Source: Branchiostoma floridae
Lineage: Eukaryota; Chordata; Leptocardii; Amphioxiformes; Branchiostomatidae
Reading direction: 5' to 3'
Length of the DNA stretch: 64,000 nt
Assembly (NCBI RefSeq): GCF_000003815.2
Contig: NC_049985.1
Location: 17,956,074 to 18,020,073 of the forward strand
The position numbers were made by a program, and so were the translations under genes. Under the pieces are notes generated by a model, which ran no database searches, was not told where the DNA came from, and saw only the letters and a program-made list of their open reading frames with translations. The number at the start of each line of letters is the position of its first letter. Within the stretch, counting starts at the first letter, position 1. Positions 1,655 to 64,000 of the stretch are shown here, piece after piece.

Positions 1655-3583
1655 TCATGCATTTTTTAAGATATTTTGCTGTATTTTTACAACGTCGGGA
1701 TGTTCCGGTCCATAGATAATTTTCATCATCTGTACTGACTGTTTAAAGTAACTCAGAGCTTTACTCTGATTGCCAAGGTCACGCCAACATGTTCCGATGT
1801 TATTAAATGAGATAGCAATGTCGGGATGATCTGTTGCTTTGCCATAGATAGCTTTCGTCATCTTTAATGACTGTTCGTAATACAAAATAGCTTTCCTCTG
1901 ATCGCCAAGTTCACTCCAACATGTTCCAATGTTGTTAAGCGATGCAGCAATATGGGGATGTGCTGTTGTTTCCCCATAGATAGCTTTCCTCATCTTCAGT
2001 GACTGTTCGTAATACCTGATAGCTTTCCTTTTATCGCCGAGGTCAATCGAACAGTTTCCAATGTTGTTAAGTGATCCAGCAATTTCGGGATGTACTGATG
2101 TTTCGCCAAAGATAGCTTTCATCATCTCCAGTGACTGTTCGTAATACCTGATAGCTTTCCTCTGATCGCCAAGGTCACTCCAACAGTTTCCAATGTTGTT
2201 GAGTAAAGAAGCAATATCGGGATGTGGTGTTGTTTTAATATAGATAGCTTTCATCATCTCCAGGGACTGTTCGTAATACCTGAGAGCTTTCTTAAAATCG
2301 CCAAGGTGATTCCAACAGTTTCCGATGTTGTTGAGTGATCCAGCAATAACGGGATGTGCTGTTGTTTCGCCATGGATAGCTCTCTTCATCTTTATTGACT
2401 GTTCAAGATAAATGAGGGCTTCACTTTGGTCGCCAAGGTGACTCATACAGAATCCAATGCTTTCAAGCAATGCGGCAATGTTGGGATGCTCTTTGCTTTC
2501 ACCATGTAAAGTATTTTCAACTGTGAGTGCCCGTCTGTAGTAGCCCATCGCTTTCTCAAACTCACCACGATTTTGTAACACCATTCCTAACTCGGAAAGT
2601 ATTTCCAACTGTTTCTTCTCGTCACTGCCTGCCTCTTCCAGAGCCGCTTCACACTGACGTAGGGATGCATCTAGATACAATAGCTGTCTTGTAATTCGGG
2701 CCCTCGTTAGAGATGAGTTATCAAATATTGCGTTATGAAAGATCTTTGTCGTTCGACTTTCCTTATAAACTGTATGAATAATACATGTTTTTAACGGAAT
2801 GGCAGTATAGTAGTACCTGAACAGCATTTTTGAGTCAGGTATGTAGAAAACTGACGGAACGAACGTGTCATCCATGTCATGTTTATCCAGTTCGACTTTC
2901 ATCTCAGTGAGAGGAGACAGTCTGTCCTTTTGTCCTCCGCTGGCGATGTACGTTCTTAACCGCAGCTCCGCCGAGATGCTGATCAGTACAGTCAAGTGGT
3001 GGGCATCTTCCTGACTAATCCGTTGTTTCTTCTGTAACTCCTGTACAATTCCCCACACACTGGGAATCGCAATACCACAGCAGATACTCAGCACGTCGAC
3101 GGCTACGCTTGGGAAGCGGTATATTTCTTTTTTGACATCCATAAGCTGCCCCGTCGGCTCAACATTTTCTAGTTGCTGAATATTATCACTCAGTACTAGC
3201 AGTGCTGACAGCCGTGACAAAGAAGCTGACAGCCGTGACAGAACAGGGGAAGGATCTACGCTTATGTTGACTCTCCCCGTATACTCATCCACCAAAGACT
3301 CGTCTCCTGTTAAGTAGGTCACCCGTCTGAGGATGTCTGACAGATGATAGCCTTCCGCCAGGGCGATGTGCAGATGTTGATACTTCGCTAATTGAGCAGG
3401 AGTCTGGATTAGACTCACGGGATCCTTGGTTCTGGTTTTTTCTCGTCCAAAGGGAGTCTTAGAAGCCCATGGCATGAAGCCGTCGAAGGCGAAGCCGCGA
3501 GGTGTGACGGAGTCGAAGAACCAGTTTTTTTTCTTCTGGTCTTCCGAGAGGAAGTCGTTGAGTGACGGGATGGCCATGGCCGG

Positions 3584-3740
3584 GAATTAGGAGTGGTCTT
3601 GCACAAGCGTGGTGAGTTTGAGAAAGCAATGGGCTACTATCGACAGGCACTCAGAGTTGCAATGACTGTGTATGGAGAGAGCACTGTGCACTCAGGCATC
3701 GCCCTATTGCTTGGAAATATTGGAGGATGTTGTATTAACC
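3584..3740 (+). other. 157-bp inverted patch copied from gene B
   Basis: These bases equal the reverse complement of 14175-14331 in gene B at every position I compared. They encode the first TPR of B (HKRGEFEKAMGYYRQAL) on the plus strand inside minus-strand gene A. Short homologies sit at both joins (GAATT; AACC). The displaced stretch corresponds to about 156 bp of B (15297-15452), so the swap is nearly length-neutral. Confidence 0.9.
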
Positions 3741-4477
3741 CGATGAAAGCGTACTTACACGGAGGAGGACCGAATTTTGCAATACATTCATCGGTCAGTA
3801 CTAGGATGAACTTCTGTCTGTAATTGTGATACCTCTAAACAAAGTTCTTGACAGCGTCAGCTCGTATGATTTCTACTTCTCTCACGACGGGATCGTCTTC
3901 ATCATACTGATAAGGGTTGTGTTCCTGATGATTTGTGTCTAGCTGAGATTTTACACGGGCGCGCATGTTAGCCAGTTCCTTTATGTGATCTAACGCGCTG
4001 CTGTACGGGCACGGTTCACAGTCTATGCTACAGGTGTTCCTAAGAAACTGCCTTTCTGTTTCTTGCAGCCTTGTTACCATGTTTTGTTTGTCTCCATCTG
4101 TCCGTGCCATGGAGGCGTTATACAGAGCTGCTGCCTGTGTGAATTTCCTACCTTCTCCTGTCCGCTTGCCTCGCTCGACGTAGACGTCACCCAACCTGCA
4201 CAGGCAGTCGGCTTCTCTAGCCTTGTCGGGTTTATAGCGATCTGTACGTATGGAGTTGAAAAAGTCAAATTCTAAAGTCCTATTACAAAAGCACCATATA
4301 TAAGTATATCATTATACTCTATACATAGCACGGGCGTGCTCACGTGGAAAATAGAAGAATAAAGAAGTCAAATGCAGATCTCTCTATGAAAGTGATGAGA
4401 AACTTAATCTTTATTATGGAGGAAAGTAGTTTCTTTAAATTATCGTGGAAGCTCATTTGTGTAAACTAGTAGTAAAC

Positions 4478-4690
4478 ATAGTACAATGCTAAACTTTCTT
4501 CCAAACAAACGTAAAATTTTCAACGACCACAGTCGTTTTTCTTCAGGACCAATACTGATGACCAATCAAATCAGTTGACTTTCAATCACTCGCTAGTTTA
4601 CGTTCCGAAGTAATTGATTCGTCATCAGTATCGTTGAAAAGCTGATCCGTTTGTACTTTTGTTTTGGAAGAAAGTTTAGCTTTGTACTAT
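4478..4690. repeat. Inverted-repeat MITE-like element in intron 3 of gene A
   Basis: The left arm 'atagtacaatgctaaacttt' (4478) pairs with the right arm ending 'tagctttgtactat' (4690), with further pairing through the 'cttccaaa' / 'tttggaag' segments. Paralogous introns lack the insert: the flanking 'aaagtaggctcttt' is continuous near 56490. Exact ends and target duplication are not clear. Confidence 0.55.
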
Positions 4691-12585: not shown

Positions 12586-15500
12586 CTAATCACGGATGGC
12601 ATTCCTACATTTTCGGATGTTGTTCTGTATTTTTACAACGTTGGGATGTGCCGACTCATAGATAGCTTTCATCATCTTTACAGACTGTTCATAGTAACTC
12701 AAAGCTTTACTCTGATCGCCAAGGTCACACCAACATGTTCCAATGTTGTTAAGTGATGAAGCAATATCGGGATGTGCTGTTGTTTCACCATAGATAGTTT
12801 TCATCATCTTCAGTGACTGTTCGTAATACCTGATAGCTTTTCTTTTATCGCCAAGGTCAATCCAACGGTTTCCAATGTTGTTAAGTGATTGAGCAATATC
12901 GGGATGTGCTGTTGTTTCTCCATAGATAGCTTTGTTCATCTTCAGTGACTGTTCGTAATACATGAGAGCTTTCCTCTTATCACCAAGGTCATCCCAACAT
13001 GCCCCAATGTTGTTAAGTGATTGAGCAATATCGGGATGTGCTGTTGTTTCACCATAGATACCTTTTCTCATCTTCAGTGACTGTTCGTGATACCTGATAG
13101 CTTTCCTCTTATCGCCAAGGTCACTCCAACGGTTTCCAATGTTGTTAAGTGATTTCGCAATATCGGGATGTGCTGTTGTTTCACCATATATAGCTTTCAT
13201 TATCTTCAGTGACTGTTCGCAATACCTGATAGCTTTCCTCTGATCGCCAAGGTCACTCCAACACAACCCAATGTTGCCGAGTGAGTAAGCAATATCGGAA
13301 TGTGCTGTTGTTTCGCCATACATAGCTTTCCTCATCTGCAGTGCCTGTTCGTGATACCCAATAGCTTTCCTCTGATCGCCAAGGTAACGAAAACAGTTTC
13401 CAATATTATTAAGTGATCCAGCAATATCGGGATGTGGTGTTGTTTCCCCATAGATAATTTTTTCCATCTTCAGTGACTGTTCGTGATACCAGATAGCTTT
13501 CCCTTTATCGCCAAGGCCACTCCAACATACCCCAATGTTGTTAAGTGATGAAGCAATTTCGGGATGCGCTGTTGTTTCACCATAGATAGTTTTCTTCATC
13601 TCCAGCGACTGTTCGTAATACTTGATAGCTTTCCTCTGATCGCCAAGGTCACTGCAACAGTTTCCAATACTGTTAAGTGATTTCGCAATATCGGGATGTG
13701 CTGTTGTTTCACCATAGATAGCTTTCATCATCTTCAGTGACTGTTTGTAATACCTGAGGGCTTTCTTCTTATCACCAAGGTCATACCAACATCTTCCGAA
13801 GTTGTTAAGTGATGCAGCGATATCAGGATGTGCTGTTGTTTCGCCATAGATAGCTTTCATCATCTTCAGTGACTGTTCGTAATACCTGAGAGCTTTCTTC
13901 CTATCACCAATGTCATACCAACATCTTCCAATGTTGTTAAGTGTTGCAGCAATATAGGGATGTGCTGTTGTTTCGCCATAGATAGCTTTCATCATCTTAA
14001 GTGACTGTTCGAGATACCTGATAGCTTTCTTCATATCGCCAAGGTCACTCCAACAGTTTCCAATATTATTAAGAGACGCAGCAATATAGGGATGTGCTGT
14101 TGTTTCCCCATAGATAGCTTTCCTCATCTTTAGTGACTGCTCGAGATAAATGAGGGCTTGACTTTGGTCACCAAGGTTAATACAACATCCTCCAATATTT
14201 CCAAGCAATAGGGCGATGCCTGAGTGCACAGTGCTCTCTCCATACACAGTCATTGCAACTCTGAGTGCCTGTCGATAGTAGCCCATTGCTTTCTCAAACT
14301 CACCACGCTTGTGCAAGACCACTCCTAATTCGCATAGTATATCAAACTGTTTTTCCTCATCACTGCCCGCCTCTTCCAGAGCCGCTTCACACTGACGTAA
14401 GGATGCATCTAAATGGAATAGCTCTTGTGTAATACGGCCCCTTATTAGCGATGAGTTGTCAAAGATCGCGTTTTGAAACATATTGGTCCACTGATTTTCC
14501 TTTGCAAATGTATCAACAATGCATATTTTTAATGGAATGGCAGTATAGTAGTACCTGAAAAGCATTTTTGAGTCTGATATGTAGAAAACTGACTGAACGA
14601 AAGTGTCATCTACATCACGTTTATCCAGGTGGGTTTTCATCTCAGTGAGAGGAGACAGTCTGTCCTTCTGTCCTCCGTTGGCGATGTACGTTCTTAACCG
14701 CAGCTCCGCTGAGATGCTGATCAGTACAGTCAAGTGGTGGGCGTCTTCTTGACTGATCCGCTGTGTCTTTTGTAACTCTTCTATCATTCCCCACGCGCTC
14801 GGGATCGTTATACCGCAGCAAATACCCAACATATCAACGGCTAAGCTGGGGAAGCGGTATATTTCTTTCTTGACATCCAGGAGTTGCCCTGTTGGCTCAA
14901 CGTTTTCTAGTTGTTGAATATTATCCCTCAGTGCTAGCAGTGCTGGCAGCCGTGCCAAATCAGCTGAACGATCTACGTCTTCAACTCGGCCCGTATACTC
15001 ATCTACCAAAGACTCGTCTCCTGTTAAGTAGGTCACCCGTCTGAGGATGTCTGACAGGTGATAGCCTTCCGCCAGGGCGATGTGCAGATGTTGATATTCC
15101 GCTAACTTATCAGGAGTCTGGATGAGACTAACAGAAGGTTTGCTCTTGGTTTCGTCTCTTCCGAAAGGAGTCTTAGAAGCCCATGGCATGAAGCCATCGA
15201 AGGCGAAGCCGCGAGGTGTGATGGAGTCGAAGAACCAGTCTTTCTCTGGGTCTTCTGAGAGGAAGTCGTTGAGTGACGGGATGGCCATGGCTGGGAGGAT
15301 GGTTTCCCCAAGGTTGATGACTTTTAGATGTAAGTAGTGTGTGAGGTTTAGGAAGTACCTCCGTGTATCATCATCATCCTTCCCTTCCTCAATCAGAATG
15401 GCGAACTCCAGGTCAGAGTACGGCGTGACCAGTTCTGTGGCTTGTGAGCCCAACCCGATGAAAGCGTACTTACACGGAGGAGGACCAAGCTTTGCAATGC

Positions 15501-18339
15501 ATTCGTCTGTCAGTACTTGGATTAACTCTTGTCTGTCAGCTGTGATCCTCTTGAACAAGTTCTTGATAGCTTCAGCTCGTTTGATCTCTACTTCTCTCAC
15601 GACGGGATCATCTTCATCATACTGATAAGGGTTGTGTTTCTGATGAATTGTGTCTAGCTGAGATTTTACACGGGCGCGCATGTTCTCCAGTTCCTCTATG
15701 TGATCTAACGCGCTGCTGTACGGACACGGTTCACAGTCTAGTTTACAGGTGCTCCTAAGAAACTGCCTTTCTGTTTCTTGCAGCCCTGTTACCATGTTTT
15801 GTTTGTCTCCATCTGTCCGTGCCATGGAGGCGTTATACAGAGCTGCTGCCTGTGTGAATTTCCTACCTTCTCCTGTCCGCTTGCCTCGCTCGACGTAGAC
15901 GTCACCCAACCTGCACAGACAGTCGGCTTCTCTCGCCTTGTCGGGCTTATAGCGATCTGAAAATAGAAAATTTTTAAAGTCAAAATACTACAGTCGTGTT
16001 CCACGGTTACTGTATATAGGCATATCAATATACTCTATAGATAAAAACTAACTTGGAAAATGTGATAAGAATGAAGTCCAATACAGGTCTATGAAAGTGA
16101 TCCTTTAGTTTAGAGGAAATTAGGCTCTGTAAAGTGTAAATTGAAACTTAACTTTACATATTCAAGTGCATTTAATCAACTTCAAACTAGAAGACTAATC
16201 ATAATTTGACGGCGTTTGAATGGAAAGTGCATAACATACCGTGAACCAGCTTCAGGGCGGCTGCCAGGTTCTGCTCTGCTGCGTCCAGGTCTCCATTTCC
16301 CAAGTCGCGGTCTGCCGTCTGGAGGTAGCTGCGGTAGGAACTGAAATAAACAAAACAAATCATGTTCTTTTCATTTAAATGGCCTTGTTGGTTGCAATGA
16401 AATTGAAATGAATGAAGGAATTTGTGCTTTTCATGATGTCATTCCCTGCCGGCTACAAAGTTTGATACGGGTGCTCCGGGGCGGTCTATATTCTACGGTG
16501 TACCACGGGCTACAATATGTACGTATACCACATGGGCTTTTATCGAATAGTTAGAAAGCATTTCGCATGCATATCAAGCGTTGCTGACGAAAAGTATCGG
16601 TCTAAGTCATGATTTGAAGCTTCTTGGTTCGCGATGTTTCGCGATGCATTTAAATTCGGGAAATTTACATTAAACACTCATTTGAATTATCATAACAATA
16701 AGAACAAACAGTTAACACGAACATTTCCAAGCGTTTTCAGACTTTTGCGGCTCCGGATCCCCGGTATTTCTGAAGAAATCACAGAATCTCCTTTAGATTC
16801 TTATCAAAATACATAGAAATGGGTATCTAGTCCATTCAAAGGAACCATTCCCTAGCACTTACATACGCATATCGTCATTGATGACGTCGCTAGAGGGCGC
16901 GGCTGAGAAGGGAGAGAAGTGGTTCTTCCGGCCACTCACGTCGTGTTGTTGCTGCGTACGTGCTGACCTCTATGAGAAGAGAAAAGGAGTCATGAATGGT
17001 GGGAAATCGTATTATCCTCAACAAACTCAAACTCAACTCCAATGAACAAATAAACTTTGACCTCACATGGCCCGTGGAACTCCAGAGCAAAATTATAGCT
17101 GGCGTTACTAGTACTGGCTATGTTCAATACAATGCAATCTCTACAACTGGATATTGTATATTGTTTACCTGAATGTCATTGGGTAAAGAGGTAGGAAGAT
17201 GAAGGTTTTCCAAATCAGGTCACACTTTGTACCCATACCCCCCCCCCCCCCCCGATAAAGTTTCGCAACACAACAACCGGCGTTGGAATATTTAGTTAGT
17301 CATAATATATGTATCATTTATCACGTTTCTCGACAACCCAGATAAACAGGAATTGTGATAAGCAGTTCGTTGTTGACACGTTGGTGCAGACTAAAAGGGT
17401 CCATGTAAATTCCACCAAGGACTCATGACATCTTATGTCAACAGTTTGCAAAGATGTGAAGTCAAATATGTACGACACCCGTCGATAGTAATGTAAGCGG
17501 CACTTTGAACATTAACAGCAAATATGTAAGGATCAAACAACGGTTCAAACAATCAATCTGGTACATATTTTTTCTCACACAGTATTTTAGTAACTAAAGG
17601 CACCTGTTGATTGTAGACTTAGACTGCAAGAATAAATTATGTATAACCAGCTCATTCCTTTCAAAGTATCGTAACGGTTAAATTCCCATATGGAGCCAAA
17701 ATCAGCCTTTCTAATTAGCTATGTTTTATCTAATTATGCCTGCTTTTCACACATTGTCAAAAAACCTATGCCGTACTGAGACGTCATTACCTGATTAGCC
17801 CGAAAGCAGAGAAATCTCCATAAAGTCACCCACAACACCAACATAGTCAGCGTACAACCTACCGGGTATCCACCACCACTTGCTAATTCCCGCAGTGATT
17901 TGTTCTTAAAGCCTACGGGCGCGACGCAAGCCATGAGCGGGGGGGGGGGGGTGTATTGCTGACTGGATTCTCATCATGTTCAACACCGATTGCTGGGGGG
18001 ACCTGGGGAGAATTCTGAAATACACCCCCCCCCCCATGCCATCGCCACTGGTCTTTGTTTCCATACCCATCTATGATTTTACCAACGTTAGGGACCCGAC
18101 CCATTATGTGTTAGAATGCTGCTATGCCTGCCTGTTATAACTGTGGCCGTCATTGAAACTATATGGTGGTAGTGGGGCAAAGTTCGTCGTTTGGTCAAAA
18201 CCTTGCCTGTACCCACAGACAAAACAAGTGAGAAGCCGTTCTTGAAATGTTTTCTCACCGTGTCCACAAAAATACAAAACAAACAAAAAAACACTGCCCA
18301 GACCATAAAATAAAATATTTCAATAGAGCGTGTAGAAAC

Positions 18340-18404
<65 letters not shown>

Positions 18405-19234
18405 TCATATATGTATGTATGTAGGGAATTGCTTTATTTTACTGAAGCAAAAAAACGTTTTTGCAATACTCCAGTTATCGTTACAATATTTTCTTTCCCT
18501 AACAGAGGTCAAAATAGATACATGTAGCTCACCTTGATTTTTGTTGTGGTGATTTCTTGCCTGATTTTTGCTGTGTGCAGTAAGCGGTGAACAATGGCCA
18601 CTGTTCCCTGCACGTTGTGACACCGCGCCAGTGCCTTGTTGTACAGAGCAGAAGCTCTGGTCAAGTCTCTAGTGTCAAGAGTTTCTGTTCCTCTTTTCAG
18701 GTACACGTCACCGAGACTTTTTGTCGCTTCTGTTTCTAACATGCTGTTCTTGTTTACTATTCCCTCTACCATCAACTGTGCGTATCCAACCAGCACAGAG
18801 TCTATGTTACTACCGGCAGCCCGTTTCTTGTCGAGGTCTTGAAACTTTCCTGCAACCTTAGCAACTGTAGTCGTCTCCTTGTCTTTTGTTGGCTGTTCCT
18901 TACCTTGTGACCCCTTTGAGAACACCGCCTGTAAAAGCCTCTCCGTGTATCTGCATCGGTGTTCTATACCTTCTCTTTGATCGCGATGGTCACACCGGAC
19001 CACAGCAGCCACGTAAAGCGCCAAGGCCATGTTGAACTTCCCTACGTCCTTCCTGAGTCTTCCCTTCTCCAAGTTCATGTCGCCCAGACTTTTGAGCAGC
19101 TCCACTTCCGCCAGCCTGTCCATGTCAGCCATGGCGTCCACCAGGGCACGGAGGTAGCCTGTCTCCGCACGGACTAGTCCGTACCTCCTGCCCTTCGCGT
19201 CCGCCTCACGGAGTTTCTCACAGACCCGCAACAT
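12586..19234 (-). CDS. NTase (GlnD/DUF294-like)-TPR protein, gene B, intact
   Basis: Exons: 19234-18533 (702 nt), 16969-16863 (107), 16340-16240 (101) and 15956-12586 (3371), with consensus donors (GTGAGC, GTAAGT, GTATGT) and matching phases; 1426 residues. Order: TPR-like modules in exon 1 and at the start of exon 4 (GDVYVERGK); NTase core at residues about 465-495 with LGPPPCKYAFIGLGS and SDLEFAIL, the hGS-x10-DhE signature of the pol-beta superfamily; GFAFDGFMPWASKTPFG as a possible third carboxylate; a DUF294_C/GlnD-like helical segment about 660-760 (LLDVKKEIYRFPS, AELRLRTYIA); then 12 TPRs of 44 residues (YGETTAHPDIA, SLNNIGNCWSDLGD) from about 845. No HD or ACT domain follows, unlike bacterial GlnD. 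No signal peptide or membrane segment, so probably intracellular. Substrate unknown; nucleotide transfer is inferred from the motif. Confidence 0.85.
16981..18532. other. Intron 1 of gene B
   Basis: No gene. Contains homopolymer C (17239-17256), homopolymer G (17939-17951), a C run near 18025-18034 and an AT microsatellite. Confidence 0.5.
18343..18402. repeat. (AT)n microsatellite
   Basis: About 28 uninterrupted AT dinucleotides within intron 1 of gene B. Confidence 0.95.
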
Positions 19235-19303
19235 GGCGTTGTTAGGGGGAGAGAAGTGGTCCTTCCGTTGTCTCATGTCTTGTTGTTGCATACGCGTTGA
19301 CCT
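19235..19303 (-). other. Exon-2-like piece fused in frame upstream of exon 1 of gene B
   Basis: 69 nt reading RSTRMQQQDMRQRKDHFSPP then NNA, directly joined to MLRVCEKL. It resembles exon 2 of the family (RSARTQQQ, DHFSPFS) and keeps an acceptor (TAG) at 19304-19306. It also supplies upstream in-frame ATGs, so the protein could start at 19291. Because family exon 1 ends in phase 0, an upstream exon could splice to it. Confidence 0.7.
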
Positions 19304-27200: not shown

Positions 27201-30200
27201 GTCAGGTTTTATGTCGATATAGAGAAGAGCATACAGTTTGCCATGGGCATGGCTTTAGTGGCACACTGATATGATGCATTTATGGGATGCCATGAAATGT
27301 AAAGTAAGGTTATTAAACAGGCAGCCAATATTTGTGAGCCAATGCAGATATTTCTCACCCCCTCTTGCCTAAGACATAAAGTAAAGTCTTAAAGTAATAG
27401 ACTCCAACTAAGAAATGACGACAAGCGAAGTGCCTTTTCGGTACAGTTATATTAGGGCTTGTAGATAACAGTCGTGATCGACAATTGAAGTTTCAGGGAA
27501 CGAAATTAACTCTTCATTGTATCTGTGGTTTGGGTAGCTCAGCCTATGTTGAATGACAAAGTACTAGTATTTGTATAACTTGTTCACTCAACACAGCCAG
27601 TTTTTAAATTCAGCAGAAGTATCAGTTCATTCACTGTCATCGTCTTGGACACTTATTGGTTTTTCATAGCTTTCACTATCCACAATGTCGGTTCTTACAA
27701 CATTGATTTTCCTCCATCTCACTCTTTCTATTTGCTGTGTAGAGCTCAGGCAATACTCCTAACTGACTTGCTTTCTTTGTAATTATTCCATATAATGTAA
27801 TGATATGGCAAGACAAATTTGTGACGTAGTTTATACGGTTCAACGGCTTTATTCTAATCACGGAGGGTACCCCTACATTTTTTAATGTTTTGATGTATTT
27901 TTACAACGTTGGGATGTGCCGGCCCATACATAACTTTCATCATTTTTACTGACTGTTCAAAGTAGCTCAGAGCTTTACTCTGATTACCGAGGTTATTCCA
28001 ACAGCCTCCAATGTTGTTAAGTGATGCAGCAATATCGGGATGCGCTGTTATTTCACCATAGATAGTTTTCTCCATCTTCAGTGACTGTTCGTGATACCTG
28101 GTAGCTTTCATCTTATTGCCAAGGTCACTCCAACAGTTTCCAATGTTGTTAAGTGATTGGGCAATATCGGGATGTGATGTTGTTTCACCATAGATAGTTT
28201 TCCTCATCTTCAGTGACTGTTCGTAATACCAGATAGCTTTCCTCTTATCGCCAAGGTCGCTCCAACAGCTTCCAATGTTGTTAAGCGATCCAGCGATATC
28301 GGGATGTGATGTTGTTTCGCCATAGATAGCTTTCATCATCTTGAGTGACTGTTCGTAATACCAAATAGATTTTCTCTTATCGCCAAGGTCACTCCAACAG
28401 TTTCCAATGTTGTTAAGTGATGAAGCAATATCGGGATGTACTGTTGTTTCGCCATAGATAGATTTCCTCATCTTTAGTGACTGTTCGAAATACCTGAGAG
28501 CTTTCCTCTTATCGCCAAGGTCACTCCAACAGTTTCCAATGTTGTTAAGTGATGAAGCAATATCGGGATGTACTGTTGTTTCGCCATAGACAGCTTTCCA
28601 CATCTTCAGTGACTGTTCGTAATACCCGAGAGCTTTCCTATTGTCACCAAGGACAAGGTCACGCCAACAGTTTCCAATGTTGTTCAGTGATGAAGCAATA
28701 TTGGGATGTGCTGTTGTTTCGCCATAGACAGCTTTCCACATCTTCAGTGACTGTTCGTAATACCCGAGAGCTTTCCTATTGTCACCAAGGACAAGGTCAC
28801 GCCAACAGTTTCCAATGTTGTTCAGTGATGAAGCAATATTGGGATGTGCTGTTGTTTCGCCATAGACAGCTTTCCACATCTTCAGTGACTGTTCGTAATA
28901 CCCGAGAGCTTTCCTCTTATCGCCAAGGCCACTCCAACAGCTTCCAATGTTGTTCAGTGATGAAGCAATATTGGGATGTGCTGTTGTTTCGCCATAGACA
29001 GCTTTCATCATTTTCAGTGACTGTTCGAGATAAATGAGGGCTTCACTTTGGTCGCCAAGTTTACTCCTACATAATCCAATGTTTGCAAGCGATGAGGCGA
29101 TGCAAGTATTCTCTTTGCTTTCTCCATAAAGATTATTTCCAACTCTGAGTGCCCGCCTGTAGCAGCTCATTGCCTTCTCAAACTTACCGAGCTTTTGGAA
29201 GACCTCTCCTAACTCGAAAAGTATTTCAAACTGTTTCTCCTCGTCACTGCCTGCCTCTTCCATAGCCGCTTCATACTGTGGAATGGATGCATCTAAATGG
29301 AAGAGCTCTTTTGTAATTCGGCCCCTTGTTAGCGATGAGTTGTCAAAAATTGCGTTCTGAAATATTTTTTTCCTTTGACTTTCTCTTCCAACTGTCTCCG
29401 CAATGCATGTTTTTAATGGAATGGCAGTGTAGTAGTACCTGAACAGCATTTTTGAGTCAGGTATGTAGAAAACTGACTGAACGAAAGTGTCGTCTATGTC
29501 ATGTTTATCCAGTTGGGTTTTCATCTCAGTGAGAGGAGACAGTCTGTCCTTCTGTCCTCCGTTGGCGATGTACGTTCTTAACCGCAGCTCCGCTGAGATG
29601 CTGATCAGTACAGTCAAGTGGTGAGCATCTTCCTCACTGATCCGCCTTGTCTTCTGTAACTCTTCGATCCTTCCCCACACACTGGGAATCTCGATACCAC
29701 AGCAAGTACTCAACACGTCGACGGCTACGCTAGGAAAACGGTATATTTCTTTCTTAACATCCAGAAGTTGCCCCGTTGGCTCAACATTAGCTAGTTGCTG
29801 AATATTATCCCTCAGTACTAGCATTGCTGACAGTCGTCCAAGATCAGCTGAACGATCTACGCTTCTGTTGACTCTGTCCGCATATTCGTCCACCAAAGAC
29901 TCGTCTCCTGTTAAGTAGGTCACCCGTCTGAGGATGTCTGACAGGTGATAGCCTTCCGCCAGGGCAATGTGCAGATCTTGATATTCCGCTAACTTTGCAG
30001 GAGTCTGGATGAGACTAACGGGATCCTTGGTTCTGGTTTTGTCTCTTCCAAAAGGAGTCTTAGAAGCCCACGGCATGAAACCGTCGAAGGCGAAGCCGCG
30101 AGGTGTGACGGAGTCAAAGAACCAATCTTTCTCTGGGTCTTCCGAGAGGAAGTCGTTGAGTGACGGGATGGCCATGGCTGGGAGGATGGTTTCCCCAAGG

Positions 30201-33200
30201 TTGATGACTTTTAGATGTAAGTAGTGTGTGAGGTTTAGGAAGTACCTCCGTGTATCATCATCATCCTTCCCTTCCTCAATCAGAATGGCGAACTCCAGGT
30301 CGGAATATGGCGTGACCAGTTCTGTGGCCTGTGACCCCAGCCCGATGAAAGCGTACTTACACGGAGGAGGACCAAGCTTTGCAATACATTCATCTGTCAG
30401 TACTTGGATGAACTCTTGTCTGTCAGCTGTGATCGTCTTGAACAAGTTCTTGATAGCTTCAGCTCGTTTGATCTCTACTTCTCTCACGACGGGATCATCT
30501 TCATCAAACTGATAAGGGTTGTGTTCCTGATGAATTGTGTCTAGCTGAGATTTTACCCGGGCGCGCATGTTGTCCAGCTCCTTTATGTGATCTAACGCGC
30601 TGCTGTACGGACACGGTTCACAGTGTATGTTACAGGTCTTCCTAAGAAACTGCCTCTCTGTTTCTTGCAGCCTTGTTACCATGTTTTGTTTGTCTCCATC
30701 TGTCCGTGCCATGGAGGCGTTATACAGAGCTGCTGCCTGTGTGAATGCCCTACCTTCTTCTGTCCGCTTACCCCGCTCGACGTAGACGTCACCCAACCTG
30801 CACAGGCAGTCGGCTTCTCTGGCCTTGTCGGGCTTATAGCGATCTGTAGGAATAACGTCGAATGATATCAGGATTAGTCAAGCTGCATTCTGCTGTGTTC
30901 TATCGCTATATTGAAGGCTAATGTTTTAAGTAGCAAAAATATGGACAAGATTTATTGTACAAATAACATTTCAATTTGTAATTTCAATAATATCAATATT
31001 ATCTAACAAATATAACACGTAAAGCTTAACAAAACAAAACAAAACCTGACATAATACTGGAGATTATAATTTTAATTTGTTTGGGTACTCGGCTGCAACA
31101 GTAGCTTCAAATAAGACGACGTGTTATGATTATATGATAATGTATAACAGACCGTGAACCAGCTTCAGGGCGGCTGCCAGGTTCTGCTCTGCTGCGTCCA
31201 GGTCTCCATTTCCCACGTCACGGTCTGCCGTCTGGAGGTACCTGTGGTAGGAGCTGACCGAGAAAACAAACGTAATGTGGTAGGAGCTGAAACCGACCAA
31301 ACAAATCATTGTCTGCTCACTTTAACGGACTGAAATGATTTTGAATGAAAAGAGCAGTCCTCATGAATCCATCCATTGAAATTAAAACAACAAAACAACT
31401 ACTTTCTCCTTCCTTAAACGGAAATGAGTTCTGCGAAGAAGTAAAGAGAATCTTTTATGCATCCATCTATTCGTATCGGTACATTAATTGCTCTGTCAAA
31501 ACAGTTCTTCTTGAAATCGTTGTAAATCAACAGTATACACAAAAAAACATTAAGAAAATGCCCAAAACAACGAATGAGCACCAGCCTTCCCTGCACCTAC
31601 TTGTAACGTCGGCACATTTCGTCATTGATAACGTCGCTAGAGGGCGCAGCTAAGAAGGGCGCGAAGTGGTCCTTCCGCTCTCGTTGTCGCTGCGCGCGTT
31701 GGGAATGACAGGAAGTCATGTACATGGAACACAGGTCATTCATTAGAAATAGATGAATAAATCAATGAATAAATCATTCAGTCATTAAATAAATAGATGA
31801 ATAAATGAATGAATGAACCAACCCCAAACTCAGATTATTACATTAGTTTTGCATACGGTGCGAATAAAACGTCACCCTGCTTAACTCAGAAATTAAAAGG
31901 AGTCGGAGTCCAGCGTGTGTCGTGTTCGTTGCAGGTACGTCACCGGTGATTAATGTAAAGTCGTTAACGAATTGTGGAACTTCCCATCAACCCCCGATGT
32001 CTGTTTTGACACTAATTAGGTAATTGACCTCAATATTTACATAATCTATGCCTGGTGATGTGATCTCACAATTTACTTCCAATGGTAATAATGATTATTA
32101 GTAGAAATGTAGACATGATTTTTCATGTAGTGAAATATTGCTGCTTTTATCACTCACCTTGTTTCTAGTTGTGATTTCCTGCCTGATTTTTGCGGTGTGC
32201 AGTAAGCGGTGGACAAGGGCAACTGTTCCCAGTACGTTGTGACACCGCGCCAGTGCCTTGTTGTACAGAGCGGAAGCCCTGGTCAAGTCTCTAGTGTCTC
32301 TAGTTTCTGTTCCTCTTTTCAGGTACACGTCACCGAGACTTTTCATCGCTTCTGTTTCTAACATGCTGTTGTCGTTTACTATTCCATCTACCATCAACTG
32401 TGCGTATCCAACCAGCACAGAGTCTGTGTTACCACCGGCAGCCCATTTCTTGTCCAGGACTTGACACTTTATAGCCACCTGTGCAGGTGTAACCGTCTGT
32501 TCAGTTGACTGCTCCAGACCCTGTGGCCCCTTTGACGACACCCCTTGTAAAAGCCTCTCCGTGTATTCGTATCGGTGTTCTATACCTTCTCCCTGTTCCC
32601 GATGGTTACACCGGACCACAGCAGCCACGTAAAGCGCCAAGGCCATGTTGAACTTCCCTACGTCCTTCCCGAGCCTTCCCTTCTCCAAGTTCACGTCGCC
32701 CAGACTTTTGAGCATCTCCACTTCCGCCAGCCTGTCCATGTCAGCCATGGCGTCCACCAGAGCACGGAGGTAGCCTGTCTCCGCACGGGCTAGTCCGTAC
32801 CTCCTGCCCTTCGCGTCCGCCTCACGGAGTTTCTCACAGACCCTCAACATGGCGGACGGCTAAGAGAACACCTGTAAAACTGCTAATCTTCACCTTGCAT
32901 TAGCTTCGTGAGTCACCACGAAAGCGGAAGTCCCCAGGTGTGACGTCATCTGATAAGCGGGGGAGTCTGGGATGGGGGATTCCCCATTTGGAAGGTTCCA
33001 TTGACAAATGATAGAGGAAAGATGGGGGACTTTCGTCCTATTGTCCACTATAGCCTCATATGACTTGAAGGAATCAAAATTACTTTCGAAAATGAGGACG
33101 CTTATTAACGTTTTACGTGAGTTTCTCACCGACCCTCAACATGGCGGAATTGTGCAAAGAAACGGATGTCTGTAATAAACATTGGCACACTTCTACACCT

Positions 33201-45997: not shown

Positions 45998-46124
45998 GTC
46001 ACTGTGCGAAAGGGTGTCATTTCCGGACGTTTCTATGTTTGTATACATCCGGATCGGGACCGTTTCTGGATATATCCGGACAATATCCGGACGAAATCTG
46101 ACATGACTCCCCTGCGTTTTCGGA

Positions 46125-52140: not shown

Positions 52141-52624
52141 CAACTAACTTAAAGGTTGTTGAACAGTCAGCCAATATTTGTGAGCCAATGCAGATATTTC
52201 CCTCCTCGTCCTGTCTGGGACATAGAGTAAAGGAAAGTAACAGAGTTTAATTACTCCTACGAAGAAATGACAACAAGCAAGGTACCTTTTCAGTACTCAT
52301 ATTGGGGTTTGGTAGATTACAGCCATGCTCGGAAATTGAAGTTTCTGGGAACGAAAACAACTATTTAAAGTACATCATTGTATCTGCGGTTTGGGTAGCT
52401 CAGCCTATTTTGAATGACAATGTTTTTATACAACCAGTTCACTCAAAACCGCTAGTTAAACCGTAGGGGCAGCATTGGTCCGTTCACTGTCGTCGTCTTG
52501 ATGGTTTTCCATATTCTTCGATACCTACACTGTCGGATCTTACAACTGATCATTGGTGTTCTTCCATCTCACCCATGTATACTGACATTATACGGCAAGA
52601 CAAACTGGTGTCTCCATAGTGAGT
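52141..52624. other. 3' flank of gene D
   Basis: Homologous to the 3' flanks of the other NTase-TPR genes ('cagccaatatttgtgagcca'). No other gene seen. Confidence 0.5.
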
Positions 52625-55600
52625 TTAACTTGATTCCTGTTTGCCCAAACTAACGGCTTTACTCTCATCATGGAGGGCATTTCTGCATATTTGTATGCTG
52701 TACTGTATTTGCGCAACTCTAGGATGTGCCGGCCCATAGATATATTTTATTATCTTTACTGACTGTTCCAAGTAACTAAGAGCTCTACTCTGATCACCAA
52801 GGCCACTCCAACATGCCCCAATGTTGTTAAGTAATGAAGCAATATCGGGATGTGCTGTTGTTTCGCCATAGATAGCCCATTCCATCCTCAGTGACTGTTC
52901 GAAATACCTGAGAGCTTTCCTCTGATCGCCAAGGTCACTCCAACATTTTCCAATGTTGCCAAGTGATGCAGCAATGTTAGGATGAGGCTTTGTTTCCCCA
53001 TAGATAGCTTTCCACATCTTTAGTGACTGTTCTTGGTACCTAATAGCTTTCCTCTTATCGCCAAGCTCATTCCAACATTTTCCAATGTTGCCAAGTGATG
53101 CAGCAATAATGGGATGTGCTGTTGTTTCACCATGGATAGCTTTCATCATCTTTAGTGACTGTTCGTGATACCCAATAGCTTTCCTCTTATCGCCAAGGTC
53201 ACTCCAACATGTTCCAATATTGTTAAGTGATGCAGCAATTTCGGGATGTGCTGTTGTTTCTCCATAGATGGCTTTTATCATCTTCAGTGACTGCTCGTGA
53301 TACCTGATAGCTTTCCTCTGATCGCCAAGGTCACTCCAACAGTTTCCAATGTTGTTAAGTGATCCAGCGATATCGAGATGTGCTGTTGTTTCACCATAGA
53401 TAGCTTTCATCATCTTCAGTGACTGTTCGTAATACCTGATAGCTTTTCTCTTATCGCCAAAGTCACTCCAACAGTTTCCAATGTTGTTAAGTGATGACGC
53501 AAAATCGGGATGTGCTGTTGTTTCACCATAGATAGATTTCATCATCATCAGTGACTGTTCGTGATACCTGATAGCTTCCCTCTTATTGCCAAGGTCTCTC
53601 CAACAGTTTCCAATGTTGTTAAGTGATCCAGCAATAACGGGATGTGCTGTTGTTTCGCCATAGACAGCTTTATTCATCTTAAGTGACTGTTCGTGATACC
53701 TGATAGCTTTCCCCTTATCGCCAAGGTCACTCCAACGGTTTCCTATGTTGTTCAGTGATGAAGCAATATCGGGATGTGCTGTTGTTTCCCCATAGATAGC
53801 TTTCATCATCTTCAGTGACTGTTCGTAATACATGAGAGCTTTCTTTTTATCGCCAAGGTCACTCCAACAGTTTCCAATGTTGTTAAGTGATGTCGCAATA
53901 TAGGGATGTGCTGTTGTTTCACCATAGATAGCTTTCATCATCTTCAGTGACTGTTCGTGATACATGAGAGCTTTCTTTTTATCGCCAAGGTCACTCCAAC
54001 ATTTTCCAATGTTGTTAAGTGATGACGAAATATCGGGATGTGCTGTTGTTTCACCATAGATAGCTTTCCTCATCTTCAGTGACTGTTCGAAATACCTGAT
54101 AGCTTTCTTTTTATCGCCAAGGTCACTCCAACAGTTTCCAATGTTGTCAAGTGATGTCGCAATATCGGGATGTGCTGTTGTTTCACCATAGATACCTTTC
54201 CTCATCTTCAATGACTGTTCGAAATACCTGATAGCTTTCCTTTTATCACCAAGGTCACTCCAACACTTTCCAATGTTGTTAAGTGATAAGGCAATATTGG
54301 AATGTGCTGTTGTTTCACCATAGATAGCTTTGTTCATCTTCAGTGACTGTTCGTAATACCTAATAGCTTTCCTCTGATCGCCAAGTTCACTCCAACATGC
54401 TCCAATGTTATTTAGTGATGCAGCAATATGGGGATGTGCTGTTGTTTCACCATAGATAGCTTTCTTCATCTTCAGTGACTGTTCGTAATACCAAATAGCT
54501 TTCCGCTGATTGCCAAGGTTCATCCAACACGATCCTACATTTCCAAGTAACGAGGCGACGTTGGAATTCTCTTTACTTTCTACATATAGACTTTTTCCAA
54601 CTGTGAGTGCCCGTCTGTAGTAGCCCATCGCCTTCTTAAAGTCACCGCGCTTTTGCATGACCTCTCCTAATTCGAAAAGTATTTCAAACTGTTTTTCCTC
54701 GTCACTGCCAGCCTCTTCCAGAGCCGCTTCACACTGACGTAAGGATGCATCTAAATGGAACAGCTCTTGTGTAATTCGGGCCCTCGTTAGAGATGAGTTA
54801 TCAAATATTGCGTTATGAAAGATCTTTGTCGTTCGACTTTCCTTATCAACTGTATGAATAATACATGTTTTTAACGGAATGGCAGTATAGTAGTACCTGA
54901 ACAGCATTTTTGAGTCAGGTATGTAGAAAACTGACTGAACGAAAGTGTCCTCTACGTCATGTTTATCCAGTTGGGTTTTTATCTCAGTGAGAGGAGACAG
55001 TCTGTCCTTCTGTCCTCCGTTGGCGATGTACGTTCTTAACCGCAGCTCCGCTGAGATGCTGATCAGTACGGTCAAGTGGTGGGCATCTTCCTCACTGATT
55101 CGCTGTGTATTCTGTAACTCTTTTATCATTCCCCACACACTGGGGACCGATATACCACAGCAGATACTCAACACGTCCACGGCTACGCTAGGAAAACGGT
55201 ATATTTCTTTCTTGACATCCAGAAGTTGTCCCGTCGGCGTAGCATTTGCTAGTTGCTGAACATTATCCCTCAGTACTAGCAGTGCTGACAGTCGTGCCAG
55301 ATCAGCTGAACGATCTACGCTTTTACTGACTCCGACTATGTACTCATCCACCAAAGACTCGTCTCCTGTTAAGTAGGTCACCCGTCTGAGGATGTCTGAC
55401 AGGTGATATCCTTCCGCCAGGGCGATGTGCAGATCTTGATACTTCACTAACTTTGCAGGAGTCTGGATGAGACTAACGGGATCCTTGGTTCTGGTTTTGT
55501 CTCTTCCAAAAGGAGTCTTAGAAGCCCATGGCATGAAGCCGTCGAAGGCGAAGCCGCGAGGTGTGACGGAGTCGAAGAACCAATCATTCTCTGGGTTTTC

Positions 55601-58467
55601 CGAGAGGAAGTCGTTGAGTGACGGGATGGCCATGGCTGGGAGGATGGTTTCCCCAAGGTTGATGACTTTTAGATGTAAGTAGTGTGTGAGGTTTACGAAG
55701 TACCTCCGTGTATCATCATCATCCTTCCCTTCCTCAATCAGAATGGCGAACTCCAGGTCGGAGTACGGCGTGACCAGTTCTGTGGCCTGTGAGCCCAACC
55801 CGATGAAAGCGTACTTACACGGAGGAGGACCGACTTTTGCAATACATTCATCAGTCAGTACTTGGATAAACTCCTTTCTGTCAGCTGTGATCCTCTTGAA
55901 CAAGTTCTTGATAGCTTCAGCTCGTTTGATCTCTACTTCTCTCACGACGGGATCGTCTTCATCATACGTATAAGGGTTGTGTTCCTGATGAATTGTGTCT
56001 AGCTGAGATTTTACACGGACACGCATGTTGTCCAGTTTCTTTCTGTGATCTAACACGCTGCTGTACGGGCACGGTTCACAGTCTATGTTACGGGTGTTCC
56101 TAAGAAACTGTCTTTCTGTTTCTTGCAGCCTTGTTACCATGTTTTGTTTGTCTCCATCTGTCCGTGCCATGGAGGCGTTATACAGAGCTGCTGCCTGTGT
56201 GAATGTCCTACCTTCTCCTGTCCGCTTGCCTCGCTCGACGTAGACGTCACCCAACCTGCACAGACAGTCGGCTTCTCTAGCCTTGTCGGGCTTGTAGCGA
56301 TCTGTAGGTAGGAAGTCGAAAACGTCAAAATTCTACAGTAGTATCCCACCGGTACTATATATAGGTATACGAATATACTTTTAAAAAATACCACTGGCAC
56401 TGGCGTCCTAATATGGACAATGCAATAAGAATGAAGGTCTCTTTATAACTGTGAAAGTGAAGACAAGACGAGATAATATTAGTATAGAGGAAAGTAGGCT
56501 CTTTAGAATGCCATTTGAAACTTCACTATACATGTTCAGCTGCACTAATGCAACCTCAAAATAAAAGATTAATCATAATCATAATCATAAATATAAATAG
56601 ACGTTTACATGTAAAGCATATAACACACCGTGAACCAGCTTCAGGGCGGCTGCCAGGTTCTGCTCTGTTGAGTCCAGGTCTCCATTTCCCAAGTCACGAT
56701 CTGCCTTCAGGATGTAGGTGCGGTAAGAACTGAAACAAACAAAAAAAGATGTTCTCCTCGCTCGAAAGGACTTTATGATGTCATCAAACTAAAATTTCTT
56801 CAGCGAAGAGAGCTATCCATCCATTCATTATATATTGTTCCATCAAAACTAAAAACATTGTAAATCAACACTATACACAAAACAGTAAGGAAATCTGCAG
56901 ACATGCATGTCTAGCTAACGTGTTCAGCTTTGATGCAAAGCTTCAGTTGATGAAAACCTCATTATGAACGATCCATTTACACCTTAAAACACTCGGCACA
57001 TTGCACAAAGAAACAACGGGAGGTCACTAACGTTTCATCGTCAGCTCGTGCGGCGTTCTTGGGTTCCGGGCCACTGAAGAAAAATAACAGGATGTTATTC
57101 AGAATTACATTTATTCTTCAATCAATAAGTACTGAAAGTGGTCAAAAACAACGAATCAGCACCAGTCTTCACTGTGCGTACCTGTAAAGTCTGTGCATTT
57201 CGTCATTGATGACGTCGCTATAAGAAGCTGAGAAGGGAGAGAAGTGGTCCTCTCCTCCTCTCACGGCTTGTTGTCGTTGTGTGCGTGCTGGCCTCTTGGG
57301 GACCGACAGGAAGTCATGTGCATGGAACACACATTCATTAGGAATGGATGAATGAATTGATTGATCAATCATTGAATAAATAAATAAATGAATGAATGAA
57401 GCAACACCAAACTCAGATTATTACTCTAGTTTTGAAATGTCATTAACACACAGTGCGAATAAAGTTGCTAACAATACGTCACCCTGCTTAACTTTGTGTT
57501 GTAATTTCTGCAGGTACGTCGACGGTGATTTATGTAAAGCTGTCAACGACTAGTGGAAATTGCTATCTAACCCAGTATTCGTTTTGACATTAATTATGTA
57601 ATTGTTTACATAATTACGTCACTAATTATGTCGCTAATTATGTAATTGACGTCAACATTTACATAATCTATGCCTGGTGATGTTCACCTTTAACTAACAC
57701 ATTCTATCATTTTCCACAATGGCAAACAGCTTTGATTTTTTATGTAGTGAAATATTGCTGCTTACATCACTCACCTTGTTTCTATTTGTGATTTCCTGCC
57801 TGATTTTTGCGGTGTGCAGTAAGCGATGAACAAGGACAACTGTTCCCTGTACGTTGTGACACCGCGCCTGTGCCTTGTTGTACAGAGCAGTAGCTCTGGT
57901 CAAGTTTCTAGTGTCTTCCGTTTCTGTTCCTCTTTTCAGGTACATGTCACCGAGACTTTTGATCGCTTCTGTTTCTAACATGCTGTTGTCATTTACTATT
58001 CCCTCTACCATCAACTGTGCGTATCCAACCAGCAAAGAGTCTGTGTTACCACCTGCAGCCCGTCTCCTGTCCAGGTCTTGGAACCTTATAGTCACCTGTG
58101 CAGGTGTAACCGTCTCTTCAGTTGGCTGTTCCTTACCTTGTGACCCTTTTGACGACACCGCTTGTAAAAGCCTCTCCGTGTATTCGTATCGGTGTTCTAT
58201 ACCTTCTCCCTGCTCCCGATTGTCACACCGGACCACACCAGCTATGTAAAGCGCCAAGGCCATGTTGAACTTCCCTACGTCCTTCCCGAGTCTTCCCTTC
58301 TCCAAGTTCACGTCGCCCAAACTTTTGAGCAGCTCCACTTCCGCCAGCCTGTCCATGTCAGCCATAGCGTCCACCAGGGCACGGAGGTAGCCTTTCTCTG
58401 CACGGGCTAGTCCGTACCTCCTGCCCTTCGCGTCCGCCTCACGGAGTTTCTCACAGACCCTCAACAT
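52625..58467 (-). CDS. NTase (GlnD/DUF294-like)-TPR protein, gene D, intact, longest TPR array
   Basis: Exons: 58467-57775 (693 nt; an in-frame ATG three codons upstream at 58476 is possible), 57294-57182 (113), a probable extra exon 57073-57032 (42), 56729-56629 (101) and 56301-52625 (3677). 1541 residues with the 42-nt exon, 1527 without. Domains follow gene B: TPR-like modules, NTase motif (CKYAFIGLGS, SDLEFAIL), DUF294_C-like region (LLDVKKEIYRFPS, AELRLRTYIA), then 14 TPRs of 44 residues, the most in the window. The C-terminus is extended past the usual end (ALHDESKAVSLGKQESS). The D of the SDLE pair and the preceding GS are kept, so catalysis is plausible. The PhyH 3' exons that accompany A, B and C are missing here. 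Confidence 0.85.
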
Positions 58468-58581
58468 GGCGGACATCTAATAAGAGAACACCTGGTCCTG
58501 AAAAACTGCTAGTCTTCACCGGTATAGGACCCCGTGTCAGCTTTGTGCGTGAGTCACCACGAAAGTGGAAGTCCCCAGGTG

Positions 58582-61646: not shown

Positions 61647-61727
61647 CGTAATTACTCCAATGAACTTTCCAAAGGTCAATGACCTGCCGCTGACGTGGGA
61701 GGAGACAAATGAGGTCGATAAACATCG

Positions 61728-61862
61728 TGTGACGTCACTTCAGGGTGTTTGCCCCAGGAACCAGAGGTCCTGGGTTCACATCCTGCCATGCTACCGATGT
61801 TGTACCCTTGGTAAGGCCTATGTCACATTTCCTACCCGGGGCCCGGCCGGGCTGTTTGCGGG
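61728..61862. repeat. SINE-like dispersed repeat, copy 5
   Basis: 'gtgtttgccccaggaaccag', 'aggtcctgggttcacatcct', 'taaggcctatgtcacatttc', matching the copies at 11.5, 26.5 and 42.1 kb. Confidence 0.5.
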
Positions 61863-62581
61863 AAGGAAAAAACAAAGTTTATGACGATGACTTGAATTAT
61901 TTTGGTCCATTTTATGTTATTGTTGTGTTATACGGGAGCAGACAGTTTGCCATGTGCTCAGGTTTACTAGCACACTGCTTGTATTTATGGATGATATGTC
62001 GTCAAATAAGGTTGTTGAACAGTCAGTCAATATTTGTAAACCAAATTATTTCCCTCCTCGTCTTGTCTAAGACATAGAGTGAAGAAAAGTAACAGTCAGA
62101 GTAAACTCCCACGAAGAAATGACAACAAGCAAGGTAACTTTTCAGGTTAGGTAAATTACAGTCATGCTCGGAAATTGAAGTTTCTGTGAACGCCAACAAC
62201 TCGTTAAAGTACATCATTGAGGTTTGGGTAGCTCAGCTTATTTTAAATGACAATGCTTGTATACAACCAGTTCACTCAACACTGCCAGTTTAACTGTAGG
62301 AGTAGCATTCGTCCATTCACTGCCATCGTCTTGATGGTTTTCCATATCGTACATTGTCTACACTGTCGGTTCTTACAGTACCACTGATAATAGATATTCT
62401 TCCTTATCACCCATGTACTTGCTGCGTACAGCGCAATCAAAGCCTTTAAAAGACTTGCTTCCTTTATAATAACTCCATATACTGAGAAGATATGGCAAGA
62501 CAAACAGGCTTTGTTCCTATTCGGGGCCCGTTGTTTCCATCGTTAGTTTATCTTGATTGATGTTTACAATAACCAACGACT
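61863..62581. other. 3' flank of gene E
   Basis: Homologous to the 3' flanks of genes A-D from about 61960. No other gene seen. Confidence 0.5.
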
Positions 62582-64000
62582 TTACTCGTTCCGGGCGGCA
62601 TTCCTACATATTCGAATGTTGTGCTGTATTTTTGCAACGTCGGGATGTGCCGGCCCATAGATAGCTTTCATCATCGTTAATGACTGTTTCAAGTAACTCA
62701 GAGCTTTACTCTGATTGCCGAGTTTATTCCAACAGGCCCCGATGTTGTGAAGTGATCCAGCAACATCGGGATGTGCTGTTGTTTCGCCATAGATAGCTTT
62801 TATCATCTCCAGTGACTGTTCGCAATACCTGAGAGCTTTCCTCTGATCACCAAGGTGAATCCAACAGCCTCCAATGTTGTTAAGTGATGAAGCAATATCG
62901 GAATGTTCTGTTGTTTCCCCATAGACAGTTTTCATCATCTTAAATGACTGTTCGAAATACCCGAGACCTTTTTCTGATCGCCAAGGTCGCTCCAACATTT
63001 TCCAATGTTGTTGAGTGATGACGTAATAGCGGGATGTGTTTCACCATAGATAGCTTTCTTCATCTTCAGTGATTGTTCAAGAAATTTGATAGCTTTCCTC
63101 TTATCATCAAGGTCACTCCAACAGTTTCCAATGTTGTTAGTTGATGACGCGATATTGGGATGTGTTGTTGTTTCGCCATAGATAGCTTTCATCATCTTCA
63201 GTGACTCTTCGTGATACCTGAGAGCTATCCTCTTATCGCCAAGGCTATTCCAACAGTTTGCAATGTTGTTAAGTGATTCAGCAATATCGGGATGCACTGT
63301 TGTTTCACCATAGATAACTTTCCTCATCTTCAGTGACTGTTCGTAATACCTGATAGCTTTTCTCTTATCGCCAAGGTAGCTCCAACATGTTCCAATACTA
63401 TTTAGTGATTTAGCAATATTGGGATGTGCTGTTGTTTCGTCATAGATAGCTTTCATCATCTTTAATGACTGTTTGTGATACCAAATAGCTTTCCGCTGAT
63501 TGCCAAGGTTCATCCAACACGATCCTACATTTCCAAGTAACGAGGCGACGTTGGGATTCTCTTTACTTTCTATATATAAATTATTTCCAACTGTGAGTGC
63601 CCGTATGTAGTAGCCCATCGCCTTCTTAAAGTCCCCGCGCATTTGCATGACGTCCCCTAATTCGAAAAGTATTTCAAACTGTTTCTCCTCGTCACTGCCC
63701 GCCTCTTCCAGAGCCGCTTCAAACTGAAGTAAGGATGCATCTAAATGGAACAGCCGTTTTGTAATTCGGCCCCTTGTTAGAGATGAGTTGTCAAAAATTG
63801 CGTTTGGAAATATCTTTGTCCTTTGACTTCCCTCTCTAACTGTATCAATGATACATTTCTTTAATGGAAAGCAGTATAGTAGTACCTAAATAGCATTTTT
63901 GAGTCTGGTATGTAGAAAACTGACTGAACGAAACTGTCGTCTACGCCATCTTTATCCAGTTGTGTTTTCATCTCAGTGAGAGGAGACAGTCTGTCCTTCT
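62582..64000 (-). pseudogene. NTase-TPR paralogue E, partial at the right edge, two frameshifts
   Basis: 3' part of exon 4 only. From the edge: end of the DUF294_C-like region, FRYYYTA, the linker (DNSSLTRGRI, AALEEAGSDEEKQFEIL), then seven 44-residue TPRs and the usual end (GPAHPDVAKIQHNI). A 1-nt deletion near 63868-63871 (paralogues read GGAATGGCAG, here GGAAAGCAG) brings in an early TAA. A second 1-nt deletion near 62964-62977 splits TPR 5 from TPR 6. Both lie in otherwise well conserved text, so a recent pseudogene or sequencing errors are equally possible. The NTase motif is outside the window. Confidence 0.75.

Follow-up and report, generated by a model that had tools for sequence, protein, structure and literature searches.

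The NEX2 proteins of Neochlamydia (Chlamydiota) carry an N-terminal repeat, a DUF294-type nucleotidyltransferase (NTase) in mid-protein, a helical domain and C-terminal tetratricopeptide repeats (TPRs), in that order. They form a large lineage-specific expansion and mostly start with an F-box, and some carry an OTU domain; a tested member has a functional type III secretion signal, and only two members are predicted to be secreted (PMC4209131). The fold of an NTase followed by a helical domain is shared by two protein adenylyltransferases, DrrA/SidM of Legionella pneumophila, an AMPylase of Rab GTPases, and GlnE, which acts on glutamine synthetase. DrrA has a guanine nucleotide exchange factor domain and a lipid-binding domain, GlnE has two NTase modules and a bacterial target, and neither ends in a TPR array. 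Here we describe five tandem genes (A to E) of the same general build in an animal, on the minus strand of a 64,000-nucleotide stretch of the Branchiostoma floridae (amphioxus) genome (hereafter the window; C7:17956074-18020073 of a 513 Mb assembly in 431 contigs). Each encodes a DUF294-type NTase, then a helical domain and then a TPR array. Genes B, C and D are intact, gene A is degenerate, and gene E carries a frameshift and extends past the edge of the window. From sequence comparison, the homology and architecture of this family are near certain.

The DUF294 model PF03445 scores 28.2, 28.3 and 25.0 bits in genes B, C and D, above the Pfam gathering score of 21, and all three genes carry the motif GS-x10-D-L-E. 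A sequence-only reading of the window had proposed NTase-TPR fusions with a GS...D-x-E signature and had named the lack of a significant NTase-model match as grounds against them; such a match is found. The same reading gave every complete copy the motif and a DUF294_C-like segment. The motif stands, but PF10335 (DUF294_C) stays below its cut-off of 22.5 bits, with 17.2 bits (E 0.0045) in gene C and 13.2 bits (E 0.081) in gene D, and is missing from those Pfam families shown for gene B (25 of 28). TPR_10 and TPR_12 match B, C and D with E-values of 1e-62 to 1e-95. The TPR array has a DNA period of 132 bp, or 44 residues, and pattern matching counts about 5 units in gene A, 12 in B, 7-8 in C and 14 in D. 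The full list of Pfam families for gene D (24 of 24, E<=0.1) contains no HD or ACT model, as the reading had said, and NCBIfam gives only weak and TPR-driven matches.

Residues G171-S172, D183, E185 and D255 of the gene D core are invariant in 13 of 13 rows of alignment A2 and 14 of 14 rows of alignment A4, rows which were picked for carrying GS...D-x-E. They are also kept in 19 of 19 sampled amphioxus rows, again picked by this motif, and therefore only the third Asp is independent evidence of retention. Predicted secondary structure sets GS at the first strand-helix junction (strand 165-169, helix 171-174) and D-L-E on the next strand (186-190), an arrangement that bears on the metal site named in the earlier reading, and a helical bundle is predicted after the NTase. 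The closest solved folds to the core, among the matches listed, are protein adenylyltransferases of the DrrA/GlnE type, and the profile matches likewise go to protein adenylyltransferases. Structural identity with DrrA/SidM is only 13%, and the SidM_N model (PF20879, cut-off 27 bits) is not reached by gene D (13.0) and narrowly missed by the amphioxus paralogue L025 (26.1). The 5-row profile A1 gave no believable solved relatives, and a second AlphaFold model, of a shorter core, was poorer (predicted local distance difference test 63.7, predicted template modelling score 0.66). PF03445 matches 14 of 14 rows of A4 and PF10335 matches 8 of 14, the best at 6.2e-5 (E<=0.1 for both). Genes B, C and D lack the R-x(4-6)-H motif of HEPN ribonucleases where it would align; a rough form of this pattern is present in 2 of the 19 rows from amphioxus and in 12 of the 35 from bacteria. 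Four deep amphioxus branches (L025, L027, L021 and L028) have a motif GS-x-AR-x-E-x-TP, nearer in letters to the chlamydial one. The window genes resemble GlnD and other bacterial DUF294 proteins in their above-threshold PF03445 match but differ from them in lacking HD and ACT. We reject GlnD as the best label, which the first reading had used, in favour of a DrrA/GlnE type.

That reading also called the family metazoan. These are animal genes, but the same architecture also occurs in intracellular bacteria. A tblastn search of plasmids with the core returned four records. One is a Neochlamydia plasmid, which holds 11 places (36% identity over 310 residues, E 2e-44); the other three are weak matches to DUF294 proteins of Vibrio (E 0.07). 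One of the Neochlamydia proteins is colinear with gene D, with 29% identity over 1177 columns and a pair E-value of 8e-149, much of the alignment being TPR. The plasmid proteins are equated with NEX2 by architecture and not by the member list of PMC4209131. Tandem copies are common to both systems: on plasmid pS13, four adjacent same-strand family frames (L001:3721-17946) lie between cell-wall genes and an IS4 transposase, and the first two resemble two parts of one gene. The N-termini differ. An F-box-like match is above cut-off in the Neochlamydia protein P0009 (Pfam), whereas neither the Pfam list for gene D (24 of 24 families) nor that for the upstream exon P0004 (0 families) includes an F-box, and the window genes carry extra N-terminal repeats instead. 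NEX2 proteins are, moreover, putative secreted bacterial effectors, while those described here are animal genes.

A scan of genome_contigs with two conserved peptides gave 11 loci, all metagenome-assembled: two in Amoebophilaceae, one in Cytophagales, three in metagenome-assembled genomes titled Rickettsia, one in Rickettsiaceae, two in Alphaproteobacteria and one each in Chlamydiae and Gammaproteobacteria. In whole-genome searches (E<=1e-10, seed genomes counted in), the family is present in 33 of 232 genomes of the phylum of the chlamydial locus, 12 of 262 of the order of L003 and 3 of 291 of the order of L002, one of these three weak. With profile A4, the class of L012 has it in 2 of 369 genomes, a seed and one other at E 1.3e-16, and the phylum of L002 has it in 2 of 296, again a seed and one other, at E 1.8e-11. 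The bacterial groups that hold the family are known for intracellular life, and from these counts the family is concentrated in such groups. No viral relatives were found by tblastn in two scans of viral_contigs. In a tree of 54 rows, the 19 animal rows, all from the host genome (genes B, C and D and 16 of the 20 copies fetched), form one clade (support 100/99; 200 of 200 bootstrap trees). Their end branches reach about 1 change per column, which makes the family old in this lineage. This tree leaves out 15 loci without a usable core (L022, L023, L024, L026, L051, L052, L053, L056, L060, L062, L068-L071 and L078), seven duplicates, and L013-L020, which are the same places as L021-L028. A rooted tree of 50 rows, with six long-branch rows removed and two Vibrio DUF294 rows added as outgroup, keeps the animal clade (100/98) and splits off the Vibrio proteins, which thus fall outside the family, at 100/100. 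Its base is weak; the grouping of animals with Rickettsiales, Cytophagales and Alphaproteobacteria has a support of only 77/37.

The tandem cluster of the first reading is confirmed, with its same-strand copies and its pseudogenes, but it represents only a minor share of a family spread over the whole genome. The DUF294 search of the host genome finds at least 119 places (150 of 262 candidates scored) and the core-protein search at least 85 rows (81 of 532 candidates scored). Their union is at least 142 places on 25 contigs, 17 of C1-C19 among them, and all these counts are lower bounds. Open frames of at least 800 residues (median 1069) contain 99 of the 119 DUF294 places. The cluster itself is bigger than the window and spans about 133 kb, with nine places, all on the same strand, counting the remnant of gene A. 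The frame of gene A runs up to the strand before the motif, is followed by unrelated sequence and resumes further on; because this unrelated sequence stands in for the segment, gene A has no GS...DLE. In gene E the frame changes inside the TPR array before the right end of the window. Beyond the window the genome holds a DUF294 match for gene E, and the protein match contains one TAA.

The core is under purifying selection, with nonsynonymous to synonymous rate ratios (dN/dS) of 0.25, 0.34 and 0.28 among pairs of B, C and D. This range, 0.25-0.34, compares well with the 0.29 published for NEX2 (PMC4209131). The TPR array behaves quite differently at the most variable, concave positions of the repeat, numbers 2, 5, 9, 12, 13, 33 and 34 (PMC1261162). 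For the 38 units of the window, the ratio of nonsynonymous to synonymous differences (pN/pS) is 1.68 at these seven contact positions (bootstrap 1.21-2.79; none of 500 replicates fell to 1 or lower) against 0.42 in the rest of the unit, the positions having been set before this count yet after a first look at per-position values. Unit pairs that are at least 80% identical (439 of 703) give 1.62 and 0.43. Random sets of seven positions reach 1.68 in 68 of 20000 draws, and the contact positions have high entropy, both in a set of 34 units (p 0.0022) and in one of 83 (p 0.0002). Several points weigh against this picture. The 83 units of more distant amphioxus copies give a ratio of about 1.02, with synonymous change saturated, and TPR units are not independent of each other. 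Bacterial TPRs give 0.74 (Neochlamydia) and 0.73 (Amoebophilaceae) but are weak controls, since synonymous change is nearly saturated there; 80% identity is reached by only 5 of 253 and 1 of 105 bacterial unit pairs, the lone pair of the second set giving 1.20. By simple counting, diversification of the ligand-contact positions is indicated for the TPRs of the window genes.

We propose that these genes encode cytoplasmic protein-modifying enzymes of AMPylase type, whose TPR arrays choose the targets, probably in conflict between host and microbe; we give this reading as a whole an even chance. The core would be a pol-beta-fold NTase with a HEPN-like helical domain, built as in DrrA/SidM and GlnE. 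Metal ions coordinated by D183, E185 and D255 would act together with the GS loop to bind ATP or a different nucleoside triphosphate. The C-terminal TPR solenoid would dock a chosen protein, to which the enzyme would add AMP, or another nucleoside monophosphate, and so alter its activity. Duplication together with TPR variation on the concave surface would then allow copies to have different targets, most plausibly microbial proteins or host proteins attacked by intracellular microbes. We infer catalysis, AMP as the donor product, a protein target and the conflict role from sequence and fold, and hold them with different confidence. The intact copies are probably active NTases. A protein as target is marginally favoured, and a role in conflict with microbes is plausible, a little short of an even balance. 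The first reading had already suggested that the TPRs pick a partner and the NTase modifies a protein; this gains real support from the adenylyltransferase folds and the diversifying TPR contacts.

The variable TPR contacts would also suit an adaptor or decoy, in which the NTase is dead in most copies and the array traps a bacterial effector or guards its target. Degenerate copies fit this as well, namely gene A and the 3 of 20 fetched amphioxus copies without a long motif-bearing frame. The catalytic residues persist in all 19 sampled intact rows, however, with the third Asp as the independent part of that evidence, and dN/dS of the NTase segment is 0.14, 0.39 and 0.16 among pairs of B, C and D. 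We consider this reading unlikely. Less probable still is a second-messenger synthase of the kind seen in cGAS-like receptors and CD-NTases, in which a microbial ligand bound by the TPR array would trigger synthesis of a cyclic or linear oligonucleotide. The superfamily signature is common to both, NTP_transf_2 matches 6 of 14 and Polbeta 4 of 14 rows of A4 (E<=0.1), and cGAS-like receptors are expanded in animals, some with TPRs (PMC9980059). The TPR-CHAT proteins of Acropora are another expanded animal enzyme family (PMC12314368). Both belong to other enzyme families, though; at E<=0.1 the Pfam lists for gene C (25 of 26 families) and gene D (24 of 24) contain no Mab-21, OAS, SMODS or CHAT model, and the clear fold and profile matches are to protein adenylyltransferases. 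A CD-NTase fold is not among the 50 fold matches listed, and such a list is no test of absence. PADLOC gave no match for the window core and only scattered weak ones for two bacterial cores. The GlnE-like fold might point to a housekeeping metabolic regulator, a modifier of PII or glutamine synthetase in the manner of GlnD or GlnE that multiplied by chance, but the missing HD and ACT domains, the at least 142 places and the patchy relatives, mostly in intracellular bacteria, make this very improbable. Bacterial contamination or an assembly artefact, suggested by the near bacterial relatives and the little-interrupted coding exons of about 3-3.7 kb, is rejected as barely credible, because the places lie in chromosome-scale contigs of the 513 Mb assembly amid upstream exons, splice sites and reverse-transcriptase elements, and the sampled animal rows form a single clade.

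Each of genes A to D has, in addition, an upstream exon that was overlooked in the sequence-only reading (Table 1). It codes for two N-terminal repeats, and a third copy opens the large exon. Upstream-exon and large-exon repeats are 32-47% identical by tblastn over stretches of 38 residues and longer, and the repeats have no Pfam match. The introns of genes A to D keep a further stretch with 89-98% identity over about 112-115 nt (A-C, B-C and C-D pairs), and a short middle exon in gene D is likely from this conservation. Its 3' end joins the large exon in phase, while its 5' junction does not follow from the donor of the upstream exon.

Table 1. Positions of the genes, exons and other features in the window
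Feature	Position	Strand	Basis or remark
Gene A large exon, degenerate	1655..4241	-	broken copy 1655-4308; genome place C7:17958691-17959695
Gene A large-exon frames	N-terminal repeat and linker 3835-4308; helical domain and TPR array 1655-3586	-	GS...DLE segment lost between
Gene A upstream exon frame, two N-terminal repeats of about 75 residues	6437..7195	-	tblastn 82% to the exon of gene D; donor AAG/GTGAGC (slash, exon end)
Gene B large exon: third N-terminal repeat, NTase (GS-x10-DLE), helical domain, TPR array	12586..15956	-	frame, Pfam, motif; open frame 12586-15987
Gene B upstream exon frame, two N-terminal repeats	18509..19303	-	frame, tblastn between repeats
Gene C large exon: third N-terminal repeat, NTase, helical domain, TPR array	27854..30843	-	frame, Pfam, motif; open frame 27854-30877
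Gene C upstream exon frame, two N-terminal repeats	32098..32859	-	donor GT at 32157
Gene D large exon: third N-terminal repeat, NTase, helical domain, TPR array	52625..56301	-	frame, Pfam, motif; open frame 52625-56332
Gene D catalytic segment: G171-S172, D183, E185, candidate third carboxylate D255	55541..55795	-	numbering of the 536-residue core
Gene D probable short middle exon, tentative	56629..56729	-	conserved intronic stretch and consensus splice sites
Gene D upstream exon, two N-terminal repeats; candidate start codon at 58476	57775..58476 (frame 57694-58476)	-	no Pfam family
Gene E, end of helical domain and frameshifted TPR array	62582..63885	-	partial copy; gene extends past right window end
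Receptor-like gene exon	1-723	-	weak EGF-type matches, apparent immunoglobulin-like start; off left window end
72-bp tandem repeat, seven arrays	9205-9751, 22069-23268, 35065-35414, 39492-40533, 45271-45998, 51847-52141, 59473-60205		between genes
32-bp repeat unit, two arrays	21016-21366, 33993-34244
Reverse-transcriptase element	49092-51059	-	PF00078, E 3.6e-40; 655-residue open frame; within the cluster

The seven arrays between the genes are built of one 72-bp repeat. The consensus units of the fifth and sixth arrays are in opposite orientation, and one strand of the repeat is open in a frame coding for a repeated 24-residue peptide. These arrays may act as seeds of recombination between gene copies.

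The expansion, the birth and death of copies with pseudogenes, the diversifying contacts and the kinship with host-acting bacterial proteins are compatible with a part in defence. The expansion of TPR-CHAT in corals offers a parallel case (PMC12314368). We found no description of an animal DUF294-TPR family in the open-access literature searched, subscription papers lying mostly outside the search. A bolder proposal would be an undescribed innate immune receptor-enzyme system of chordates, of at least 142 genes, in which an effector-type AMPylase shared with intracellular bacteria by horizontal transfer carries TPRs that diversify under selection so as to recognise many proteins, microbial or targeted by microbes, and inactivates or flags these by nucleotidylation; we put it forward tentatively, as the less likely outcome. 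If the AMPylase-type reading is right, well over 100 genes of one animal genome would be given to an enzyme with its nearest relatives, of those found, in Chlamydiota, Rickettsiales and Amoebophilaceae, at least one group of these proteins being tested substrates of secretion. Target-directed protein nucleotidylation would join the known tools of conflict between animals and microbes, and exchange of genes between animals and bacteria that live in cells could be tested on this family. It would also explain a DUF294 annotation in an animal that is otherwise read as a bacterial nitrogen regulator. The copy number and the kinship with intracellular bacteria point to an unstudied animal system, perhaps one of defence.

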